Shown in pieces: positions 30,867-41,894 of a stretch of 64,000 bases of DNA. Origin of the DNA: an uncultured Saprospiraceae bacterium (lineage in GTDB: Bacteria > Bacteroidota > Bacteroidia > Chitinophagales > Saprospiraceae). The stretch is taken from the NCBI GenBank assembly GCA_937928405.1, contig CALFWZ010000014.1, forward strand, positions 1 to 64,000, read 5' to 3'. The notes below the pieces were generated by a model. The model did not search any database and was not told the origin of the DNA. It was given only the letters and a program-made list of their open reading frames with translations. Within the stretch, counting starts at the first letter, position 1. Every line of letters starts with the position of its first letter. The translations under genes were made by a program, and so were the position numbers.

Positions 30867-33800
30867 CTACATATTCCGCCGATACTGCCCGCCCACCTCA
30901 TACAAGGCATTGGTAATCTGTCCCAACGAACAAACCTTTACGGCTTCCAACAGTTCCTCAAAAATATTTTCATTCTTAATTGATTTTTCCTGTAATCGTT
31001 TTAGCGTAGCGGCGGAGACAGCTGCTTTGTTGGTATGTAGTTGTTGTAGCGTACGGATCTGATCCTGTTTTTCCTCTTCTGTGGCACGGATGACCTCTTC
31101 AGGAATTACGGTTGGTGATCCATCTTTTGATAAATAAGTATTTACCCCAATGATCGGAAATTCTCCAGTATGTTTGAGCATCTCATAGTGCATACTTTCA
31201 TCCTGAATTTTTCCTCGTTGATACATCGTTTCCATGGCACCAAGGACACCACCCCGCTCGGTTAGACGATCAAATTCCAGCAGCACTGCTTCTTCTACTA
31301 AATCCGTCAATTCTTCGATAATGTACGCACCTTGAATTGGATTTTCGTTTTTGGCGAGTCCTAATTCGTGGTTGATAATCATTTGAATGGCGACTGCTCT
31401 ACGAACACTTTCTTCGGTTGGCGTGGTGATGGCCTCGTCGTAAGCGTTGGTGTGCAGCGAATTACAATTATCATAAATGGCATACAGTGCTTGTAAGGTT
31501 GTACGAATATCATTGAAAGAAATTTCCTGTGCATGTAAAGAGCGACCGGAGGTCTGAATATGATATTTTAATTTTTGAGAACGAGCATTCGCTTGATATT
31601 TTTCCCGCATTGCCTTGGCCCAAATTCTACGAGCTACACGACCAATTACGGCATATTCTGGATCAATTCCGTTGGAAAAAAAGAAAGAAAGATTGGGGGC
31701 AAAATCATTAATATCCATTCCCCTAGAAAGATAATATTCTACGAAAGTAAAACCATTGGATAACGTAAAGGCCAACTGCGTAATCGGATTAGCGCCAGCT
31801 TCCGCAATATGGTATCCAGAAATAGAAACGGAATAAAAATTTCTCACCTTATTTTTAATAAAAGACTCTTGTACGTCGCCCATTAATTTGAGCGAAAATT
31901 CTGTAGAAAAAATACAGGTATTTTGTGCTTGATCTTCTTTTAAAATGTCTGCTTGTACCGTTCCTCGGACAGAGGCGAGTGCTTTAGCTCGCAACGGCGC
32001 ATAGACTTCAGGCTCCAAAATTTGATCACCTGTAATTCCTAATAAGCGTAAGCCCAGTCCATTGTTATTTTCAGGGATTTCTCCTTGATAGGCTGGTCTG
32101 GGTTGATCTTGATCATCGTAAACTTCTTTTAGTTTGGCTTCCACCAAATCTTCAAGACCATTTTCTTTAATATACATTTCGCACTGCTGATCAATGGCGG
32201 CATTCATAAAAAAGGCACAAATGGTAGCGGCAGGACCGTTGATGGTCATCGAAACGGAAGTCTTTGGATTACAAAGGTCAAATCCTGAATAGAGTTTTTT
32301 GGCATCATCTAAACAACAAATACTTACCCCGCTGTTTCCAATTTTTCCGTAAATATCTGGACGATGATCTGGGTCTTCCCCGTATAAGGTTACCGAGTCA
32401 AAGGCTGTAGACAAGCGGTTGGCTGGCATATCCGCTGAGAGATAATGAAAACGACGATTGGTTCGTTCTGGTCCACCTTCGCCCGCAAACATTCTCGTTG
32501 GATCTTCTCCTTTTCGCTTGAATGGAAATACACCAGCGGTAAACGGAAACTCTCCAGGCACATTTTCTTGTAAGCAGTAACGGAGAATTTCTCCCCAGTC
32601 TTTATAACGTGGCAACGCAATCCGTGGAATGCGCGAATGTGATAAAGAAGTGGTAAAAGTGGGTACTCGAATTTCTCGATCTCTTACTTTGTAAACAAAT
32701 TCATCTGCCGCATACGCCGCCTTTTTATCTTGCCACTCGTCGAGGATTCGACGGCAGCGACCATCCAAATCAAGCGCTGCATCTTCATAGGCTTTTTCGA
32801 GTTCAGCCACCAGCGAATTGTTCTCAGCATCTTTATCTTTTAAAACATCAATGGATTGTTGGAGTCCGTATAATTTACTAGCTAGCGTACACTGAGCATC
32901 GACCCAACGATCATATTGCCGATTACTTTCAGAAATTTCAGAAAGATAGCGAGTCCGTTTGGGAGGAATGATAAAAATCTTTTCACTCATTTCGTTATCA
33001 CTATCGAAATCAGATGTAAGGTTTGCATTGGTTTTTTCTACAATTTTATTCATCAAATTCCGGTACAAAGTATTCATGCCCGGGTCATTGAATTGCGAAG
33101 CGATGGTGCCGAAAACAGGAAGATCTTCTACCTTAGTATCCCAAAGTTGATGATTGCGCATATATTGTTTTTTGACATCACGTAGAGCATCTTTGGCGCC
33201 TCGTTTATCAAATTTATTGATGGCAATCATGTCTGCAAAATCCAACATGTCGATTTTTTCTAGTTGCGTAGCTGCACCGTATTCGGGTGTCATGACGTAG
33301 AGTGAAACGTCGGAGTGATCGGTAATCTCCGTATCAGATTGCCCGATACCAGAAGTTTCTAAAATAATCAAATCGTAGTTAGATGCTTTTAGAATGTCAA
33401 CGGCAGACTGTACATGTTTAGACAAAGCCAAATTGGATTGTCGGGTAGCAAGTGAACGCATAAAGACCCGTTCTTTCGCTTGGGTGCCATGAATGGAATT
33501 CATCCGAATTCGATCACCGAGGAGTGCGCCTCCGGTTTTTCTTTTAGAAGGATCGACCGAAATAATAGCAATCGTTTTATCTGAAAAATCTAGTAAAAAA
33601 CGACGGACTAATTCGTCCACGAGACTAGATTTTCCTGCCCCTCCCGTTCCGGTGATTCCTAATACTGGAATATTCTTTTTGGAAATCTCTTTTTGAATAT
33701 CTTGGAGCCAATCTGCGTTGACTTTGGGAAAATTTTCGGCAGCGGTAATCATCCGAGCGATGGAGTGATCATCCTGTGAAGTATATTTTTTTAATTCACC

Positions 33801-34256
33801 ATTGAGTTGTTCGCCGATAGGGAAATCGCAGTTTTTTAATACATCGTTGATCATTCCCTGTAGGCCCATTGTTCGTCCGTCATCTGGACTATAAATTCGG
33901 TTAATACCATATTGGTGAAGATCTTCGATTTCGGAAGGAAGAATGGTGCCACCCCCGCCTCCGAAAATTTTGATATGTGCTGCACCTTTTTCGCGGAGTA
34001 AATCATACATGTATTTAAAAAATTCGTTATGGCCTCCTTGATAAGATGTGATGGCGATGCCCTGAACATCTTCTTGAATGGCGGTATTGACGATTTCTTG
34101 GACGGAGCGATTATGACCTAGATGGATAATTTCGGCACCGGAGCTCTGCATGATGCGGCGCATGATATTGATGGCGGCGTCGTGACCGTCAAAAAGAGAA
34201 GCGGCGGTTACAATCCGCACCTTGTTTTGTGGCTGGTAGGGTGCTATTTTTTCCAT
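30867..34256 (-). CDS. icmF: Fused isobutyryl-CoA mutase (B12-binding, GTPase chaperone and mutase in one chain)
   Basis: Adenosylcobalamin enzyme that interconverts isobutyryl- and n-butyryl-CoA. In its 1129 residues the order is B12 domain (about 12-145, with the axial ligand in FDGHDAA, H25), a MeaB/MeaI-like G-protein domain (about 195-450, Walker [10 protein letters not shown] at 203-211) and the mutase barrel (about 540 to the end). The order and length identify IcmF rather than two-subunit methylmalonyl-CoA mutase. GVFPFKR has Phe where methylmalonyl-CoA mutase uses Tyr, consistent with an apolar acyl group. A TATCTTTG promoter lies about 35 nt upstream. The region to the convergent GHMP gene is short. 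Confidence 0.94.
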
Positions 34257-36715: not shown

Positions 36716-37087
36716 TCAGTTTTTATTGATCAGTTTTTTGTCCAGATTTCCTCTTTTCATTTTTACAATTTTTAGTTCTTCGGCGCTCAGTGCTTTTTGC
36801 AAATGGGTCACTCCAGCCTGCATATCAATTTCACCACAAGTAAAAATATCAACAGCGGCGTAAGCGTGTTCTGGCCAAGTATGAATAGTGAGGTGACTTT
36901 CCTGAATGACGACCACTCCTGATACTCCCAGTGGAGAAAAATGATGAAAGGTGCTGGTCACGATAGTCGCCCCCATTATCTCGGCGGTTTCTTTTAGAAT
37001 GCGCTCCATCGCTTTCGGATCAGACAAAAGCTGGGCATCGCAGTGATAACCTTCAATAAGCCAATGTTGTCCGAGAAAATTCGTCAT
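36716..37087 (-). CDS. speD: S-adenosylmethionine decarboxylase proenzyme
   Basis: Provides the aminopropyl donor for spermidine synthesis. The 123-residue bacterial-type proenzyme self-cleaves before the Ser in ESHLTIHTWPEH (E63-S64-H65 counting from the ATG), creating the pyruvoyl cofactor. FHHFSPLGVSGVVVI and YAAVDIFTCG are conserved. I use ATG 37087. A TTG 33 nt upstream would add 11 atypical residues. It follows the SpeE-like gene by about 51 nt on the same strand, so the two probably form an operon. Confidence 0.93.
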   Translation of the reverse strand: MTNFLGQHWLIEGYHCDAQLLSDPKAMERILKETAEIMGATIVTSTFHHFSPLGVSGVVVIQESHLTIHTWPEHAYAAVDIFTCGEIDMQAGVTHLQKALSAEELKIVKMKRGNLDKKLINKN

Positions 37088-37138
37088 ATTTATTAATGCT
37101 TTGCAAGCTTTAGACAGCAAAATGCTAGTAACTTTCCT

Positions 37139-38686
37139 TTAATTCTTTTTGTCTTTTCTCCATCGTTCCCAATCCGTTAAAAAATAATCAAGCAGCACGG
37201 GATGGTCTAGTCGATTAATTTTTAAGTTTTTTGGATGGTCAATATCTGGTTCAAAATAAAACATTCTTTCTACATTCTCACCGTTTAAATATTTTAGTGG
37301 AAGTTCAGATGCGAATTTTTGTGGCTCAATTGGGTGATTGGCTGCAATCAGAAAACCCCAGTCTCCAAAAGAGGGGACATAGGTATGGTAGGGATAGACG
37401 TCCGCAAAATCACTGGCTTTGAGCGATTCATAAATACACCAAAAAGCTCTACGGGTATGAAATGGTCCAGTTGCTTGTGTGGCAAAGATCCCGTAACGAC
37501 TTAACTTGTTTTGTGCCAATCTGAAAAAAGCGGTGCTGTATAACCGTGCGATAGCTTCGTTGGATGGGTCTGGTAGGTCTGCAATAATTACATCGTAAAT
37601 GTCGGTAGTGGTCCTGAGAAAAGCCATGGCATCTTCGGCAATCAAAGTTACTTTAGGGTGATGGAGGGCGTCGGCATTTACTTCCCGTAAAAATTTATTT
37701 TCTTTTCCTAGTCGAAATACTTCCGGATCTAAATCTACAATGGTAATGTTTTCTACTTCAGGGTCTTTTAAAATTTCACGGGCTAATAATCCTTCTCCAC
37801 CACCGAGTACCAGCACGGACTTTTTGAAAGGAGCGGCTTGCAACGGAATCATCGCTAGTGATTCATGGTAACGATATTCATCCAATGAAGAGAACTGAAT
37901 AATTCGATTGATGTAAAGCCGCAGGTCTTCTTTGTTTTTGGTAAGTACTAATTTTTGATAGGGTGTTTCTTTGCTATAAATAATTCTGGCCGTGTAGAAA
38001 TTATCCTCCCAATGCCCTAGCAAACGATCTGAAAAAACACCGACGAATACAAATCCGATTAGACAACCAATCATCGTCGGTTCCATCCATCGTTTTTTAT
38101 TGATTTGTAAACGGTTTGTGAAAAAGCGGTAAATACTTAATCCCAAGATAATATTAACCGCACCAAAAATAATGGAGGTTTTAAAGGTTCCGACAAAAGG
38201 TAGCAATAAAAAAGGGAAAAGGAGGGTAGCAAATAATGCCCCCACGTAATCTAAACTAAGGACATAGGCTAGGTTACTTTTGAGCGGATAATAAGTTTTT
38301 AATATTCTAACCAACAATGGAATTTCAAAACCGGTAAGTGCACCAATCATAAAGGTGATTCCTAACGTTAGAAACTGATAACTATCTACGGATAACTGAT
38401 CAAATCCATAATACAAAAGAGGAACACTCAAGCCGCCAATAATACCAAGTAATACTTCTATTTTTACAAACCAACCTAGTAGATCATCCGGTAAAAAACG
38501 CGTCAAATAAGAACCCAGTCCCATCGCAGCCATGTAAATACCAATGGTCAACGAAAACTGCTTAATACTATCACCTAAAAAATAGGAAGCAGTAGTACTA
38601 ATTAGTAATTCATAAATCAGCGAACATAGTCCAGCAATAAATACCGCCAGAAAAAAAGCCACCCGTTCTAACGGTCCCACCTTCAT
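37139..38686 (-). CDS. Membrane-anchored spermidine synthase-like protein
   Basis: A 515-residue two-part protein. Residues about 8-215 hold seven hydrophobic helices (FFLAVFIAGLCSLIYELLI first), and the C-terminal half is a SpeE domain. The nucleotide site VLVLGGGEG, acidic VDLDPEVF, and YDVIIADLPDPSNEA with the catalytic Asp pair are intact, so aminopropyl transfer seems possible. The soluble enzyme is about 280 residues, so the membrane half is an addition seen in a known subgroup. ATG 38686 is preferred over a TTG at 38710. It is co-directional with speD and divergent from the lipoprotein/ATP-grasp pair. Confidence 0.88.
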   Translation of the reverse strand: MKVGPLERVAFFLAVFIAGLCSLIYELLISTTASYFLGDSIKQFSLTIGIYMAAMGLGSYLTRFLPDDLLGWFVKIEVLLGIIGGLSVPLLYYGFDQLSVDSYQFLTLGITFMIGALTGFEIPLLVRILKTYYPLKSNLAYVLSLDYVGALFATLLFPFLLLPFVGTFKTSIIFGAVNIILGLSIYRFFTNRLQINKKRWMEPTMIGCLIGFVFVGVFSDRLLGHWEDNFYTARIIYSKETPYQKLVLTKNKEDLRLYINRIIQFSSLDEYRYHESLAMIPLQAAPFKKSVLVLGGGEGLLAREILKDPEVENITIVDLDPEVFRLGKENKFLREVNADALHHPKVTLIAEDAMAFLRTTTDIYDVIIADLPDPSNEAIARLYSTAFFRLAQNKLSRYGIFATQATGPFHTRRAFWCIYESLKASDFADVYPYHTYVPSFGDWGFLIAANHPIEPQKFASELPLKYLNGENVERMFYFEPDIDHPKNLKINRLDHPVLLDYFLTDWERWRKDKKN

Positions 38687-38749
38687 ATCCAAATTTTTAA
38701 CGAAAAACAAACAAAATACTCAGGAGTTGATTATCTTGGTCGCTGATTA

Positions 38750-38931
38750 AAGTGCATGCTCAAAATAATCAATAACCTATGACGGTTTCTTTTTTCTCTA
38801 CACTTCGTTAAAAAGTCTTCCCGCTAAGGCGGGACAGGCTGTGATAGCTACGGCTATCTCTACGTTTTTTGCCTTATCTAGAGAAAAAATCCCCTTAGTC
38901 ATAACTTATCATTATTTTTGATCAAGCACTT
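38750..38931. repeat. Dispersed quasi-palindromic element, copy 3 (inverted)
   Basis: Fills the divergent intergenic region. Arms AAGTGC (38750) and GCACTT (38926-38931) close it, and TTTTTTCTCTA (38790-38800) pairs with TAGAGAAAAAA (38879-38889). The apex on the minus strand reads AGGCAAAAAACGTAGA followed by a GATAGC/GCTATC hairpin (38843-38858), as in copy 1. A CCCGC/GCGGG hairpin lies at 38820-38833. The right arm includes the promoter-like TATTTTTG at 38913-38920. Confidence 0.85.
38913..38920 (+). promoter_or_regulatory. Candidate -7 element for the lipoprotein/ATP-grasp pair
   Basis: TATTTTTG matches TAnnTTTG. It lies within the right arm of the quasi-palindrome, about 50 nt before ATG 38972. 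Confidence 0.45.
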
Positions 38932-38971
38932 AAAGTTTTTTAATATAAAATTTCAAAGAAAACACAAAATT

Positions 38972-39502
38972 ATGAAATCATTAGCAATTAAATCGACTAT
39001 TCCTGCACTCCTACTCATCTTTTTAGCTTGTGGGTTGATTTTTACCAGCTGTGGTAGCGATACTGAGACGGTAGAAGTGGAAATTCCAACGGAAGGATTG
39101 ATTACGACTGTAAAAGAAGTAAGCACAGATTTATTTAAGATCGAAAACGAAGAGACCGTAGCTGATACAGCTGATAGCCGCATCATTGCTAACTATATGG
39201 ATGCCACCAGTGATACCTTTACTCTAGCAGAAGCTCGTCTGATGCAGGCCAACGGTTCAGGTCGTGACCAATCGGTGGTACGTTCGGCTGGAATGGGATA
39301 CTTTGGGTTTATCATGCTAGGACGTATGGGTGGAGTCGCTCCTCGTCCAGGTGCTTACACCAGTGCTGCGGCACATGGCAAAGCAAGTAGTGGTGCAGGT
39401 CAGCGAATGAAGAGCTCTGCTAACCGTGTTACTCGTACTCGACCATCTAGCGGAAAATCAGGCTATGGTTCTGGAAAATCTACTCGGTCTTATGGTGGAT
39501 AA
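38972..39502 (+). CDS. YgiB-like surface lipoprotein with Gly/Ser/Arg-rich tail
   Basis: A 176-residue lipoprotein. The signal ends in the lipobox FTSC (Cys about 27). The middle shows no domain that I recognise, and the last 50 residues are rich in Gly, Ser and Arg (RTRPSSGKSGYGSGKS). The stop overlaps the start of the ATP-grasp gene by 11 nt. The order lipoprotein then GspS-like ATP-grasp is that of E. coli ygiB-ygiC, where YgiB is also a lipoprotein with a Ser/Gly-rich tail. I infer a functional parallel. Sequence homology is not demonstrated. Confidence 0.7.
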   Translation: MKSLAIKSTIPALLLIFLACGLIFTSCGSDTETVEVEIPTEGLITTVKEVSTDLFKIENEETVADTADSRIIANYMDATSDTFTLAEARLMQANGSGRDQSVVRSAGMGYFGFIMLGRMGGVAPRPGAYTSAAAHGKASSGAGQRMKSSANRVTRTRPSSGKSGYGSGKSTRSYGG

Positions 39503-40679
39503 TCGCATCGTTTCGGTCCGTCCGCTCGATGTAGAAGTAATTAAAGATCTAGATCTAGAATGGCTTACTGTCGGAGAGAACGAGGAATATTTGTCTAATG
39601 AGTTTTTGCAGTTGACTTCTAAAGAGGTTGACGCACTCCGCGATGCCGCTGAAATAACTTACCGGATTCTACTAAAAGCGGCGGAACATGCCGTGGAACA
39701 GGGAGAATGGAAGTTGCTCGGAATTCCTCCTCACGCCATTGACTTAGTAAAATATTCCTTGGCCAACGAAATGGATACGCATTTGCTCGGTCGCTTTGAT
39801 TTTTCGGGTGGCCTAGACAATGTACCTATTAAGCTGTTGGAGATCAACGCAGATACCTGCTCTTTACTGGCGGAGACTGCCTATATCCAAGAGCAGCAAT
39901 GGAAACAAGACGAGGAAAAACTAGAAGGGAGTCCTTATAATCCAGTCATTGAAGAAATGATCGAACGGTTTCGGCGGATCATTAACCAGCATCCAGATCG
40001 AGATCCTACCCTATTGATTTCTACTTTGGGATACGAAGAAGATTGGATTAATGCGGACGTGGTAGCTGAGGCTGCTCGTGAAGCTGGGTTTGAAGAAGTC
40101 GAAACGGCTATTCTGGAGCGGGTTATTTTTTCACCAGAAGAAGGTATCTTTTTGGAGGAAGACGATGGTGCTTTTGTTCGTTATGACTTTTGGTATAAAT
40201 TTATTCCATGGGATTTTATTGCCTACGAAGAGCCCGATCTTTTTGATGATTTAGAACGATTAATTATTGATCGAAAAGTGGTCGTGCTTAATCCGGCTTA
40301 TACCATGTTATTGCAATCTAAAGCATTATTAAAATATGCTTATGATTTGTATCCTGATAATCCATACTTGCTAAAAACTACTTTTTCAGCAGCAGATTTT
40401 CCAGATCATAAATATGTGGCCAAGCCAATTTACGGTCGAATGGGAGAAAATATTTCTTTCTACGATGGTCAACCTGAACCAACGTATCAAACGGAAGGAG
40501 ACTATGATGATTTACCCGTGGTCTATCAAGAACTAGCGCCTTTTAATTTTGATTTAGAAGGACATCGCTATCAGCCCAGTATCTTTTGGACGGGTTTGCC
40601 GGCTGGTCTTTGCTTTCGCCGTCAGGATGATTTGGTGATTGATGATGATGCAGAATTTGTGGGGCACGTCGTTGGGTAG
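39492..40679 (+). CDS. Glutathionylspermidine synthase-like ATP-grasp ligase (YgiC type)
   Basis: A 395-residue carbon-nitrogen ligase. The N terminus (VRPLDVEVIKDLDLEW), LLGRFDFSGG, LLEINADTCSLLAETAYIQ and FVAKPIYGRMGENIS-like C-terminal segment match the GspS synthetase domain, which joins a peptide carboxylate to a polyamine amine. There is no amidase domain, and the length matches E. coli YgiC (about 386). ATG 39492 (MVDNRIVS) is favoured. A frame from 39426 would overlap the lipoprotein gene by 77 nt. The nearby speD and SpeE-like genes suggest spermidine as a substrate, which is inference. Confidence 0.88.
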   Translation: MVDNRIVSVRPLDVEVIKDLDLEWLTVGENEEYLSNEFLQLTSKEVDALRDAAEITYRILLKAAEHAVEQGEWKLLGIPPHAIDLVKYSLANEMDTHLLGRFDFSGGLDNVPIKLLEINADTCSLLAETAYIQEQQWKQDEEKLEGSPYNPVIEEMIERFRRIINQHPDRDPTLLISTLGYEEDWINADVVAEAAREAGFEEVETAILERVIFSPEEGIFLEEDDGAFVRYDFWYKFIPWDFIAYEEPDLFDDLERLIIDRKVVVLNPAYTMLLQSKALLKYAYDLYPDNPYLLKTTFSAADFPDHKYVAKPIYGRMGENISFYDGQPEPTYQTEGDYDDLPVVYQELAPFNFDLEGHRYQPSIFWTGLPAGLCFRRQDDLVIDDDAEFVGHVVG

Positions 40680-40703
40680 AACTTTTTTTCAAAAAAAAAC
40701 ATG

Positions 40704-40738
40704 TCCGCTAATTGGTTGTTTATCAACTGGTTAGCGGA
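40704..40738 (+). terminator. Intrinsic terminator after the ATP-grasp gene
   Basis: TCCGCTAA pairs with TTAGCGGA, with further inner GTTG/CAAC pairs, then a T6 run. Confidence 0.85.
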
Positions 40739-40771
40739 TTTTTTATTTGGAGACTAAAAAACGACCTTAAA

Positions 40772-40811: not shown

Positions 40812-41261
40812 ATGAAAATTGAAAAAGCCATAAAACAAACGCGCCCATTCAAGAGTGTCTATCATCGGGCTGCCGTCAATCTGGTATATACTAGTAATTG
40901 GCTAAACGAACAGCATCGTGTTTTTTTTAAAAAATTTGAATTGACGCGTAAGCAGTTCAATGTTTTACGAATTGTAAAAGGCGCAGACGAACCAATTTCT
41001 ACGGCGGCCATTCGAGAGCGATTACTTGATAAGATGTCAGACGCATCACGAGTAGTAGATCGATTGGAAAAAAAGCAATTGGTAAGTAAATATATTCGCC
41101 CATCAGACAAACGTTTGGTAGATATTGTATTGACTGAAAAAGGAAATGCTTTATTAGAAAAAATTGCAAAAAAAGATAATCAATTAGGAGATGTTTTAAA
41201 AAATCTCTCCGAGAAAGAAGCAACACAGCTAAGCAATTTATTGGATAAGATGCGAGGCTAA
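40812..41261 (+). CDS. MarR-family transcriptional regulator
   Basis: A 149-residue winged-helix dimer protein. ELTRKQFNVLRIVKG, AIRERLLDKMSDASRVVDRLEKKQLV and the wing KRLVDIVLTEKGNALL are standard MarR elements. There is no obvious redox Cys, so it does not look like OhrR. It is followed 33 nt later by the YceI gene, so the pair is probably one transcript. The upstream palindrome is the likely operator. The inducing signal is unknown. Confidence 0.92.
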   Translation: MKIEKAIKQTRPFKSVYHRAAVNLVYTSNWLNEQHRVFFKKFELTRKQFNVLRIVKGADEPISTAAIRERLLDKMSDASRVVDRLEKKQLVSKYIRPSDKRLVDIVLTEKGNALLEKIAKKDNQLGDVLKNLSEKEATQLSNLLDKMRG

Positions 41262-41294
41262 TTTTTTCACATAAAATTTTAACAAGTAATAATT

Positions 41295-41894
41295 ATGAAA
41301 TCCTTAAAATTAATGGGCTTATTGACCCTAACACTATTAATCGGTATGTCATTTACAGATGCTCCGGTTGTTAAATTACTAAAAGCAAATTTAGACAACA
41401 GTATTATCAATTGGAAAGGATACAAGGTAACTGGCTCGCATGAGGGAACTTTGAAATTAAAAGAAGGACAGTTAGCGTACACAGATGAGGTTTTATCTGG
41501 AGGATATTTTGTTGTTGATATGAATTCAATTAATTGTACAGATTTGGAGGCTGGAAAGGGTAAAGAAAAATTAGAAGGTCATCTAAAATCCGCTGATTTT
41601 TTTGGTACTGAAAAGCATCCAACAGCTCGTTTTGAAATAACAAAAGTTGTGAGTCGTGGAACTGCTGGTGATTATCGTGTATCTGGTAATTTGACCATCA
41701 AATCGTCTACACAACCGATTAAATTCAATGCAGTAGTAAAGAAAGATATGAAAGGAGCAACCGCAAATGCAGCCATCAAAATTGATCGTACTGACTTTGA
41801 TGTACGATATGGATCAGGCAGCTTTTTTGATAATTTAGGCGATAAAACGATTTACGATGAATTTGATTTAAACCTAACCTTGGTAGTAGAATAG
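41295..41894 (+). CDS. YceI-family lipid-binding periplasmic protein
   Basis: A 199-residue secreted protein with a signal peptide (about 1-22). YceI proteins form a lipocalin-like barrel that binds isoprenoid or fatty-acid chains. Matching segments are WKGYKVTGSHEGTLKL near the start, then LEGHLKSADFFGTEKHPTARFEI and VSGNLTIKSSTQPIKF. It is the second gene after marR, so it is likely induced by the signal MarR senses. The dispersed element copy 4 begins right after its stop. Confidence 0.93.
   Translation: MKSLKLMGLLTLTLLIGMSFTDAPVVKLLKANLDNSIINWKGYKVTGSHEGTLKLKEGQLAYTDEVLSGGYFVVDMNSINCTDLEAGKGKEKLEGHLKSADFFGTEKHPTARFEITKVVSRGTAGDYRVSGNLTIKSSTQPIKFNAVVKKDMKGATANAAIKIDRTDFDVRYGSGSFFDNLGDKTIYDEFDLNLTLVVE

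Follow-up and report, generated by a model that had tools for sequence, protein, structure and literature searches.

GspS activates the C-terminal glycine carboxylate of glutathione and then couples spermidine to it. Stand-alone GspS-like ligases occur in E. coli K-12 as YgiC and YjfC, each encoded directly downstream of a lipoprotein gene (ygiB and yjfM, respectively) whose product ends in Gly-Gly (GG), and relatives of these pairs are found in many phyla; neither the joint function of the pairs nor the natural substrate of the ligase is established in the literature searched. NCBI annotates YgiC and YjfC as peptide--spermidine ligases, a designation that reportedly also appears in the title of a 2023 paper by Pederick. 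YgiC has been reported to lack GspS activity (PMC12506659, citing Sui 2012). Passages of a study of PspA-CesT/Tir operons describe some that combine a SpeE fused to seven transmembrane helices with a DUF350 protein and a lipoprotein, and others that combine a GspS-like ligase with DUF350 and a DUF1190 lipoprotein (Ravi 2024, PMC11237479). Here, we describe a locus in which both enzymes stand together, in a 64,000-nucleotide stretch (the window) of contig CALFWZ010000014.1 from an uncultured Saprospiraceae bacterium (GCA_937928405.1). Comparison of this locus with its relatives showed that GspS-like ligases adjoin differently folded proteins with a common C-terminal tail, and it makes a lipoprotein-tail polyamine conjugation module the probable function of the locus.

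The four genes are intact and lie as follows:

36716..37120, minus strand: speD, S-adenosylmethionine (AdoMet) decarboxylase proenzyme, likely ATG at 37087 (TIGR03330, PF02675)
37139..38710, minus strand: speE, polyamine aminopropyltransferase with an N-terminal multi-helix membrane domain, likely ATG at 38686 (NF002956, PF01564)
38972..39502, plus strand: lipoprotein of 176 residues, starting MKSLAIKSTIPALLLIFLACGLIFTSC
39458..39502, plus strand: C-terminal tail of the lipoprotein, SGYGSGKSTRSYGG, with the stop codon; the carboxylate of its last Gly is the proposed polyamine acceptor
39492..40679, plus strand: YgiC/YjfC-type ATP-grasp ligase of 395 residues, without amidase domain (PF03738)

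Coordinates and family matches agree with the initial annotation, which had placed two divergent gene pairs at 36716-40679 and had seen the lipoprotein gene overlap that of the ligase; the overlap is 11 bases (39492-39502), and an upstream GTG accounts for the longer one in the mechanical list of open reading frames (ORFs). The same annotation had also cited published surveys as linking GspS-like ligases with AdoMet decarboxylase, membrane SpeE-like proteins and lipoproteins, of which a 2009 amidoligase survey by Iyer is probably one. The operons of PMC11237479 come close to that description, but the passages of that paper do not describe the four-gene set and assign SpeE and the ligase to separate operon groups. 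The window resembles the E. coli pairs in the order of lipoprotein and ligase; however, the E. coli yjf operon contains PspA, DUF2491, and DUF350, where the window has a linked speD and membrane speE instead. Neither a DUF350 match nor a PspA match above cut-off was found in the window's own genome, a draft that is 91% complete, so that absences from it are provisional. On these grounds, an envelope-stress operon of the PspA/DUF350 type was rejected.

The ligase and its tailed partners

The ligase matched PF03738 at 267.3 bits (cut-off 29.3) over profile positions 5-371 of 371, with no other Pfam domain. Its nearest solved sequences were E. coli YjfC (7uk6, E = 4.1e-26) and YgiC (7uk8, E = 1.3e-22), and its AlphaFold2 model (predicted local distance difference test, pLDDT, 95.7) had 7uk6 as top fold match (E = 6.6e-30), followed by E. 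coli GspS; the earlier assignment as a YgiC-type ATP-grasp ligase is thereby borne out. Positions aligned with R316, E330, N332, K498, K533, and R538 of GspS, which we take to be its catalytic residues, were invariant in 105 of 105 ligases, an alignment from which L020 and L118 were excluded for their split reading frames. A TAG codon breaks the ligase reading frame in a draft genome titled Chitinophagales (L005, L020, L118). The model for bifunctional GspS, NF007801, scored 94.2 bits against a cut-off of 882, with its best stretch (profile positions 479-611 of 619) in the synthetase part. The window ligase thus shares with GspS and trypanothione synthetase the ATP-grasp synthetase fold and catalytic residues; it differs from GspS, which carries an amidase domain and uses glutathione as acceptor, in lacking the amidase and in its proposed acceptor, a protein. 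Glutathione was set aside as acceptor because the own genome gave no match to the Glu-Cys ligase PF04262, other routes to glutathione not having been searched.

The lipoprotein consists of a signal peptide, Cys-27, a small beta domain, a glycine-rich hydrophobic segment, and a flexible Arg/Ser/Gly tail, and the earlier description of it as Arg/Ser/Gly-rich holds for this C-terminal part. No Pfam match above 13.2 bits and no NCBIfam match were obtained. Its AlphaFold2 model (pLDDT 80.7) contains a confident small domain, pLDDT falls to ~50 over the last 16 residues, and the model had no fold match in the PDB at E<=0.001. Homologues were collected with a profile for which every sequence was stripped of its last 20 residues, so that the test of the tail would not be circular; lipobox and tail searches relied on simple ORF calls. 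The search yielded 88 homologues in the fetched loci; these lean to near relatives, since a search for relatives was taken up only for its best 80 of 561. DUF1190 (PF06693) did not match the window lipoprotein at E<=1, and its matches to relatives were all below cut-off (L019, E = 0.0092; L095, E = 0.018; L065, E = 0.11). A tail-less profile of 85 homologues reached YgiB at 8.8e-7 in a 95-ORF database, through two short pieces of which one is the signal peptide, and left YjfM unmatched. The E. coli partners are DUF1190 lipoproteins, whereas Pfam does not recognize the window lipoprotein as one. Nor is the lipid anchor strict, since the Cys is absent from 2 of 25 aligned window-type homologues (L134, L146). 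Three close homologues (L069, L134, L146) have an N-terminal hydrophobic segment and no lipobox Cys, with the tail retained.

The window lipoprotein ends in ..STRSYGG. Terminal GG was present in 65 of 88 homologues (63/85 once identical tails were merged) and in 36 of 44 representatives at 60% identity, compared with 1.45 expected from their own tail dipeptides, a count reached in 0 of 100,000 simulations. Among controls in the same loci, 0/97 other lipobox ORFs and 7/1228 other ORFs ended in GG. Where an overlap with the ligase gene is impossible, GG was still found in 15 of 23 representatives vs. 0.86 expected (31/52 homologues before thinning), and two small terminal residues (G, S, A) in 19 of 23 vs. 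5.0 expected. In the alignment of the lipoproteins, the column of the penultimate glycine, G175, ranks within the 12 most conserved. The L142 lipoprotein ends in T, and its ORF looks cut short.

The tail is not confined to this lipoprotein. In a 395-genome sample of the phylum, the ligase was found in 32 genomes, all of which were inspected, and 28 had a tail partner. Ten carried the window-type lipoprotein, every one of them tailed, including one genome (G305) in which it is unlinked from the ligase and still ends in ..RSRSFSG, and another (G427) in which one gene intervenes. This lipoprotein family was present in 10/32 ligase-positive vs. 3/363 ligase-negative genomes; the three matches were weak and set aside, and the test counts the 10 genomes. 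In eight others, a short gene upstream of the ligase ended in SS, GS, or HA, with a lipobox-like N-terminus in 7/8, and six of these eight loci had a second, tail-less lipoprotein-like gene ending in VK or VQ. The remaining 14 ligases were distant (E = 3e-21 to 7e-7), and 10 of them had a neighboring 455-497-residue RR-motif protein, with one gene between in G339 and the protein split into two frames in G328. These proteins ended in ..GGFSGG, ..FFGG, ..FFSS, and similar, the last residue being G or S in nine and L in one. Of the other four distant ligases, three had no such partner and one lay where the contig ended. The RR-motif family had no Pfam match above cut-off, and several of its loci contained a DUF350-like protein (two tested). 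When the core of the window-type lipoprotein was compared with the RR-motif proteins, the profile probability was 10.9%, in the signal-peptide region only; the cores being unmatched, common domains do not explain the common tail. G190:C27 and G246:C4 each hold an additional, marginal PF03738 match that lacks a tail partner, and each of these genomes was counted once, by its main match. Examples of distant PF03738 ligases with DUF350-like and RR-motif proteins are at L217:4130-5518, L073:9682-11100, L223:4555-5949, and elsewhere, and a conserved 210-residue protein with a weak DUF1517 match often adjoins the RR-motif protein.

Beyond the phylum, YgiB and YjfM of E. coli end in ..SSRSMGG and ..RGHWGG. 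Thirteen plasmid loci from several phyla were chosen for taxonomic spread among 40 listed of 164 matching records, and 11 of the 13 had a tail protein near the ligase. DUF1190 tail proteins occurred in Rhizobium, Vibrio, Sulfitobacter, Asticcacaulis, Azospirillum, Roseomonas, Methylobacterium, and Paracoccus. The tail protein is downstream of the ligase in Sulfitobacter, Paracoccus, and Roseomonas, in the last behind DUF350. Three further plasmid partners had no DUF1190 match: a 168-residue Arthrobacter protein without lipobox, ending in RGGFGGGAKGGGGHGG; a 389-residue Leptolyngbya protein ending in GGASS; and a 91-residue Virgibacillus lipoprotein ending in GRGASS. The Arthrobacter protein (L293:3263-3769) is annotated as a 'tRNA-dihydrouridine synthase' and had no Pfam match at E<=1, and the annotation looks wrong. 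Taken together, the partners of the ligase share a C-terminus, not a fold and not strictly a lipid anchor.

Polyamine enzymes and gene linkage

SpeD matched the equivalog model TIGR03330 at 135.3 bits (cut-off 75.65) and is the sole PF02675 match in the own genome. Its residues 15-128 align with the AdoMet decarboxylase of T. maritima (1tlu), and the motif ESHLTIHTWPE, with its Ser, is kept. By family, the protein would be an AdoMet decarboxylase, and a SpeE partner is present; neofunctionalized SpeD homologues do exist, as passages of PMC10407285 describe. SpeE scored 556.3 bits with NF002956 (cut-off 472), PF01564 covered residues 279-455, and the best solved relatives were thermospermine synthase (6bq2) and Thermus-type aminopropyltransferases. 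Its N-terminal half is hydrophobic, with six segments above threshold in a crude hydropathy scan; seven membrane helices are given for this type of SpeE in a passage of PMC11237479. The only other PF01564 match in the own genome was weak (32.4 bits, C184). The genome also carries an nspC-type decarboxylase (G000:C75:12870-13979; 514.5 bits, cut-off 409.05), another route to spermidine or norspermidine. With this route present, the linked SpeE might, as a guess, serve to produce a dedicated polyamine or a longer one, or might work on one that is already bound.

SpeE adjoins the lipoprotein-ligase pair in 22 distinct loci of Saprospiraceae-type genomes (L118 and L134 were left out as duplicates of L020 and L070) and is divergent from it in all 22. 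The place of speD varies: beside speE in eight loci, behind the ligase on the same strand in five, behind it on the other strand in seven, and outside the flank examined in two. Named carriers are Neolewinella persica, with one extra gene between, and Portibacter marinus; some four-gene records are titled Chitinophagales or Bacteroidetes. Among 60 relatives, the membrane SpeE was present in 12 of 14 genomes with the ligase vs. 4 of 46 without it (Fisher p = 1e-7), although two of the 12 (G003, G004) have only SpeE fragments at contig ends, and the window's genus supplies seven of the 14 ligase genomes and six of the 12 with SpeE. In other genera of the family, SpeE was found in 5/6 ligase genomes vs. 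3/24 others (p = 0.002). Two relatives (G011, G020) have both genes unlinked. Across the phylum sample, membrane SpeE above cut-off was present in 29 genomes, together with the ligase in four, and linked to it in three. Conservation of the four genes across Bacteroidota, a check proposed with the initial annotation, thus extends to Saprospiraceae-type genomes (22 loci, 20 with speD) and not to the phylum at large (p = 0.28), and four-gene linkage as a phylum-wide rule was rejected. Outside Saprospiraceae-type genomes the lipoprotein-ligase pair usually occurs without SpeD or SpeE. What recurs generally is the unit of lipoprotein and ligase, and the set of four is a feature of Saprospiraceae-type genomes.

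The window SpeE is like the PRK03612 family of membrane polyamine aminopropyltransferases and exceeds the NCBIfam cut-off. Elsewhere, the partners of this family are DUF350 and DUF4178-type proteins, an FAD oxidoreductase, and a lysine-ended membrane protein, in place of which the window has the ligase pair. A lysine-ended membrane protein or lipoprotein was present in 21 of 26 membrane-SpeE loci outside the four-gene set (L231, L234-L243, L245-L254). In nine of the 26 (L247 and L251 being near copies), a 232-470-residue tail protein, often a lipoprotein, ended in GK on a similar Arg/Ser/Gly tail; eight of the nine had a DUF350-like protein, DUF4178 was tested and found in one, and their genomes had no match to PF03738. 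In ten (L235-L242, L253, L254), a 45-75-residue single-pass protein just before DUF350, identified by position and not by its last letter, always ended in HK, and in L240 it is fused to the preceding protein. These HK-type loci have SpeD, a 407-487-residue protein, and a short DUF350, with an FAD-type oxidoreductase in those inspected for it. In L231 and L243, 78-residue proteins ending in GK precede SpeE. No lysine-ended protein was found in L229, L230, L232 (where the flank is 174 bases), L233, and L244; L229 and L230 come from the ligase genomes G011 and G020, and L236, with an HK protein, from the ligase genome G223. A family search of genome G123 for further loci of this kind gave two matches above cut-off, both already in the set.

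Among five plasmid SpeE loci, chosen for taxonomic spread among 25 listed of 64 matching records, four had lysine-ended proteins (L298, L300, L301, L302; Alteromonas ..SSGK, Ensifer ..ESGK, Tritonibacter ..NRVK, Novosphingobium ..PSHK), and none was identified in the Burkholderia locus. Terminal K was found in 0/88 ligase-type lipoproteins vs. 162/1228 other ORFs. A SpeE motif reads YVPSFGDWGF in the window vs. HNQVLTMGQWGW and similar in the GK type. Since a terminal lysine would make a primary amine available to SpeE without a ligase, these partners suggest a second route. We advance only tentatively, and with some doubt, the idea of two convergent C-terminal polyamine routes on envelope proteins, in which a ligase would amidate Gly or Ser in one (G-type) and SpeE would aminopropylate the lysine side-chain amine in the other (K-type). 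The window might combine both, the ligase placing an amine on Gly-Gly and SpeE supplying or lengthening it.

Flanking features of the window

Two features border the genes of the set:

38687..38971, no strand: intergenic region that separates the divergent speE and lipoprotein genes, with two short inverted repeats (38819-38834 and 38843-38858)
40703..40739, plus strand: intrinsic-terminator-like hairpin of 16 pairs followed by a T-rich run, 3' of the ligase, from a scan for terminator-like sites

The two inverted repeats at 38819-38858 have no further copy elsewhere in the window. Terminator-like sites in the scan that listed intergenic repeats numbered 3, against 3.7 expected in shuffles, and are not in excess. 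Just 3' of the hairpin, a MarR regulator and a YceI-like protein are encoded on the plus strand (40812-41894); both are at the same place in the congeners L006 and L007 and not in L009 and L012. On the minus strand at 30867-34256, one protein unites methylmalonyl-CoA mutase, MeaB GTPase, and B12-binding domains, a fusion that we take to be IcmF-like.

Proposed modification and competing readings

A ligase that amidates C-termini would need a partner conserved right up to its final small residue, as these partners are, and coupling of the polyamine before export is therefore proposed. SpeD, by family membership, would make decarboxylated AdoMet, which the membrane SpeE may use to make or lengthen a polyamine. 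The cytoplasmic ligase would phosphorylate the C-terminal carboxylate of the Gly-Gly tail of the pre-lipoprotein and couple a polyamine amine to the activated Gly, by analogy with the action of GspS on the terminal Gly of glutathione. Export and lipid anchoring would follow, leaving the lipoprotein with a flexible Arg/Ser/Gly tail capped by a cationic polyamine. In what is the weakest step, binding of the capped tail to anionic lipids or to polymers of the surface could stabilize the envelope. The initial annotation had suggested that a polyamine conjugate is perhaps attached to the lipoprotein; attachment is the reading best supported by comparison, with the acceptor at the C-terminal residue and not at Arg or Ser side chains. 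We found no description of a C-terminal polyamine amide on a lipoprotein in the literature searched, which did not include the contents of Pederick 2023, Sui 2012, Iyer 2009, and Li 2019. The text of PMC11237479 does not contain the word 'glycine' and has 'tail' once, in the title of a reference; of 16 passages with related terms, 12 were read, and none deals with the C-termini of these lipoproteins.

Several points weigh against such a module, which is read from sequence throughout. The column of GspS D610, presumably the spermidine-binding residue, holds E388 in the window ligase and Arg in YgiC and YjfC. The terminal residue is not always Gly, as SS, HS, RS, HA, and once L occur, and the ligase would thus have to accept other small residues. 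No tail partner was found in 3 of the 32 phylum-sample ligase loci (a contig ended in one more) or in 2 of the 13 plasmid loci (Photobacterium and Azospirillum TSH58). GG was present in 21 of 21 representatives where an overlap with the ligase is possible vs. 15 of 23 where it is impossible. Membrane SpeE occurred in 4/32 ligase genomes of the phylum sample vs. 25/363 others (p = 0.28). Finally, nspC is a second route to spermidine-type polyamines, and spermidine may not need SpeD or SpeE.

In one alternative, SpeD and SpeE simply make the spermidine of the cell and lie beside the lipoprotein-ligase pair by a coincidence of one lineage. They are the sole SpeD and the sole strong SpeE of the genome, and the pair usually does without them; however, SpeE is divergent from the pair in 22/22 loci while speD shifts among three places, nspC offers the genome another route, and SpeE and the ligase co-occur in relatives even where unlinked (G011, G020). 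We consider a coincidence unlikely. The GG end itself might have arisen as an artefact, either from low complexity or because the start codon of the ligase overlaps it, since the bases that write YGG-stop in the window also carry the ligase ATG and GG is universal where overlap is possible. The excess of GG where overlap is impossible and its rarity in the control ORFs argue against this, as does the retention of the tail in proteins whose genes lie apart from that of the ligase (L018, L063), follow it (Sulfitobacter, Paracoccus, Roseomonas), or are not linked to it (G305). The overlap accounts for part of the fixity of GG, not for the whole tail, and these counts largely refute the artefact, to which we give almost no credence.

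Two other alternatives accept the tail and assign the ligase a different substrate. It could make a small-molecule polyamine conjugate, such as a thiol- or peptide-spermidine, with the lipoprotein as binding, sensing, or export partner. The PF03738 family and GspS fold are consistent with this, as are operons, described in passages of PMC11237479 and also seen in Rhizobium, in which a potassium channel and membrane proteins of the DUF350 type accompany ligases of this kind. It would, however, leave a stop-adjacent C-terminal motif on several scaffolds unexplained, and both the lack of a PF04262 match in the own genome, within the limits given above, and the low NF007801 score speak against it; a small-molecule product therefore seems improbable. 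Alternatively, the tail could be a motif through which another component of the envelope, such as a DUF350 protein, docks or is assembled, while the ligase acts on something else. The Arg/Ser/Gly-aromatic tail is long and low in complexity, and several loci have DUF350 close to the ligase and the tail protein. Yet the own genome, in which no DUF350 match was found, retains the tail, and a search of one set of loci with YjfL as the single query labelled DUF350 in L060 and L075 only, the tail again being retained. The conservation of G175 also speaks against docking; we judge this reading decidedly improbable. Polyamine conjugation to the C-terminus of the lipoprotein accordingly remains the reading that we hold to be probable.

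The recurrence of the C-terminal tail beside the ligase on unrelated scaffolds would name both the substrate of these ligases and the exact residue modified. If this is true, a C-terminal polyamine amide would be a new protein modification, giving polyamines a covalent role in the envelope, and it would account for the way in which envelope-stress operons repeatedly combine polyamine enzymes and lipoproteins.

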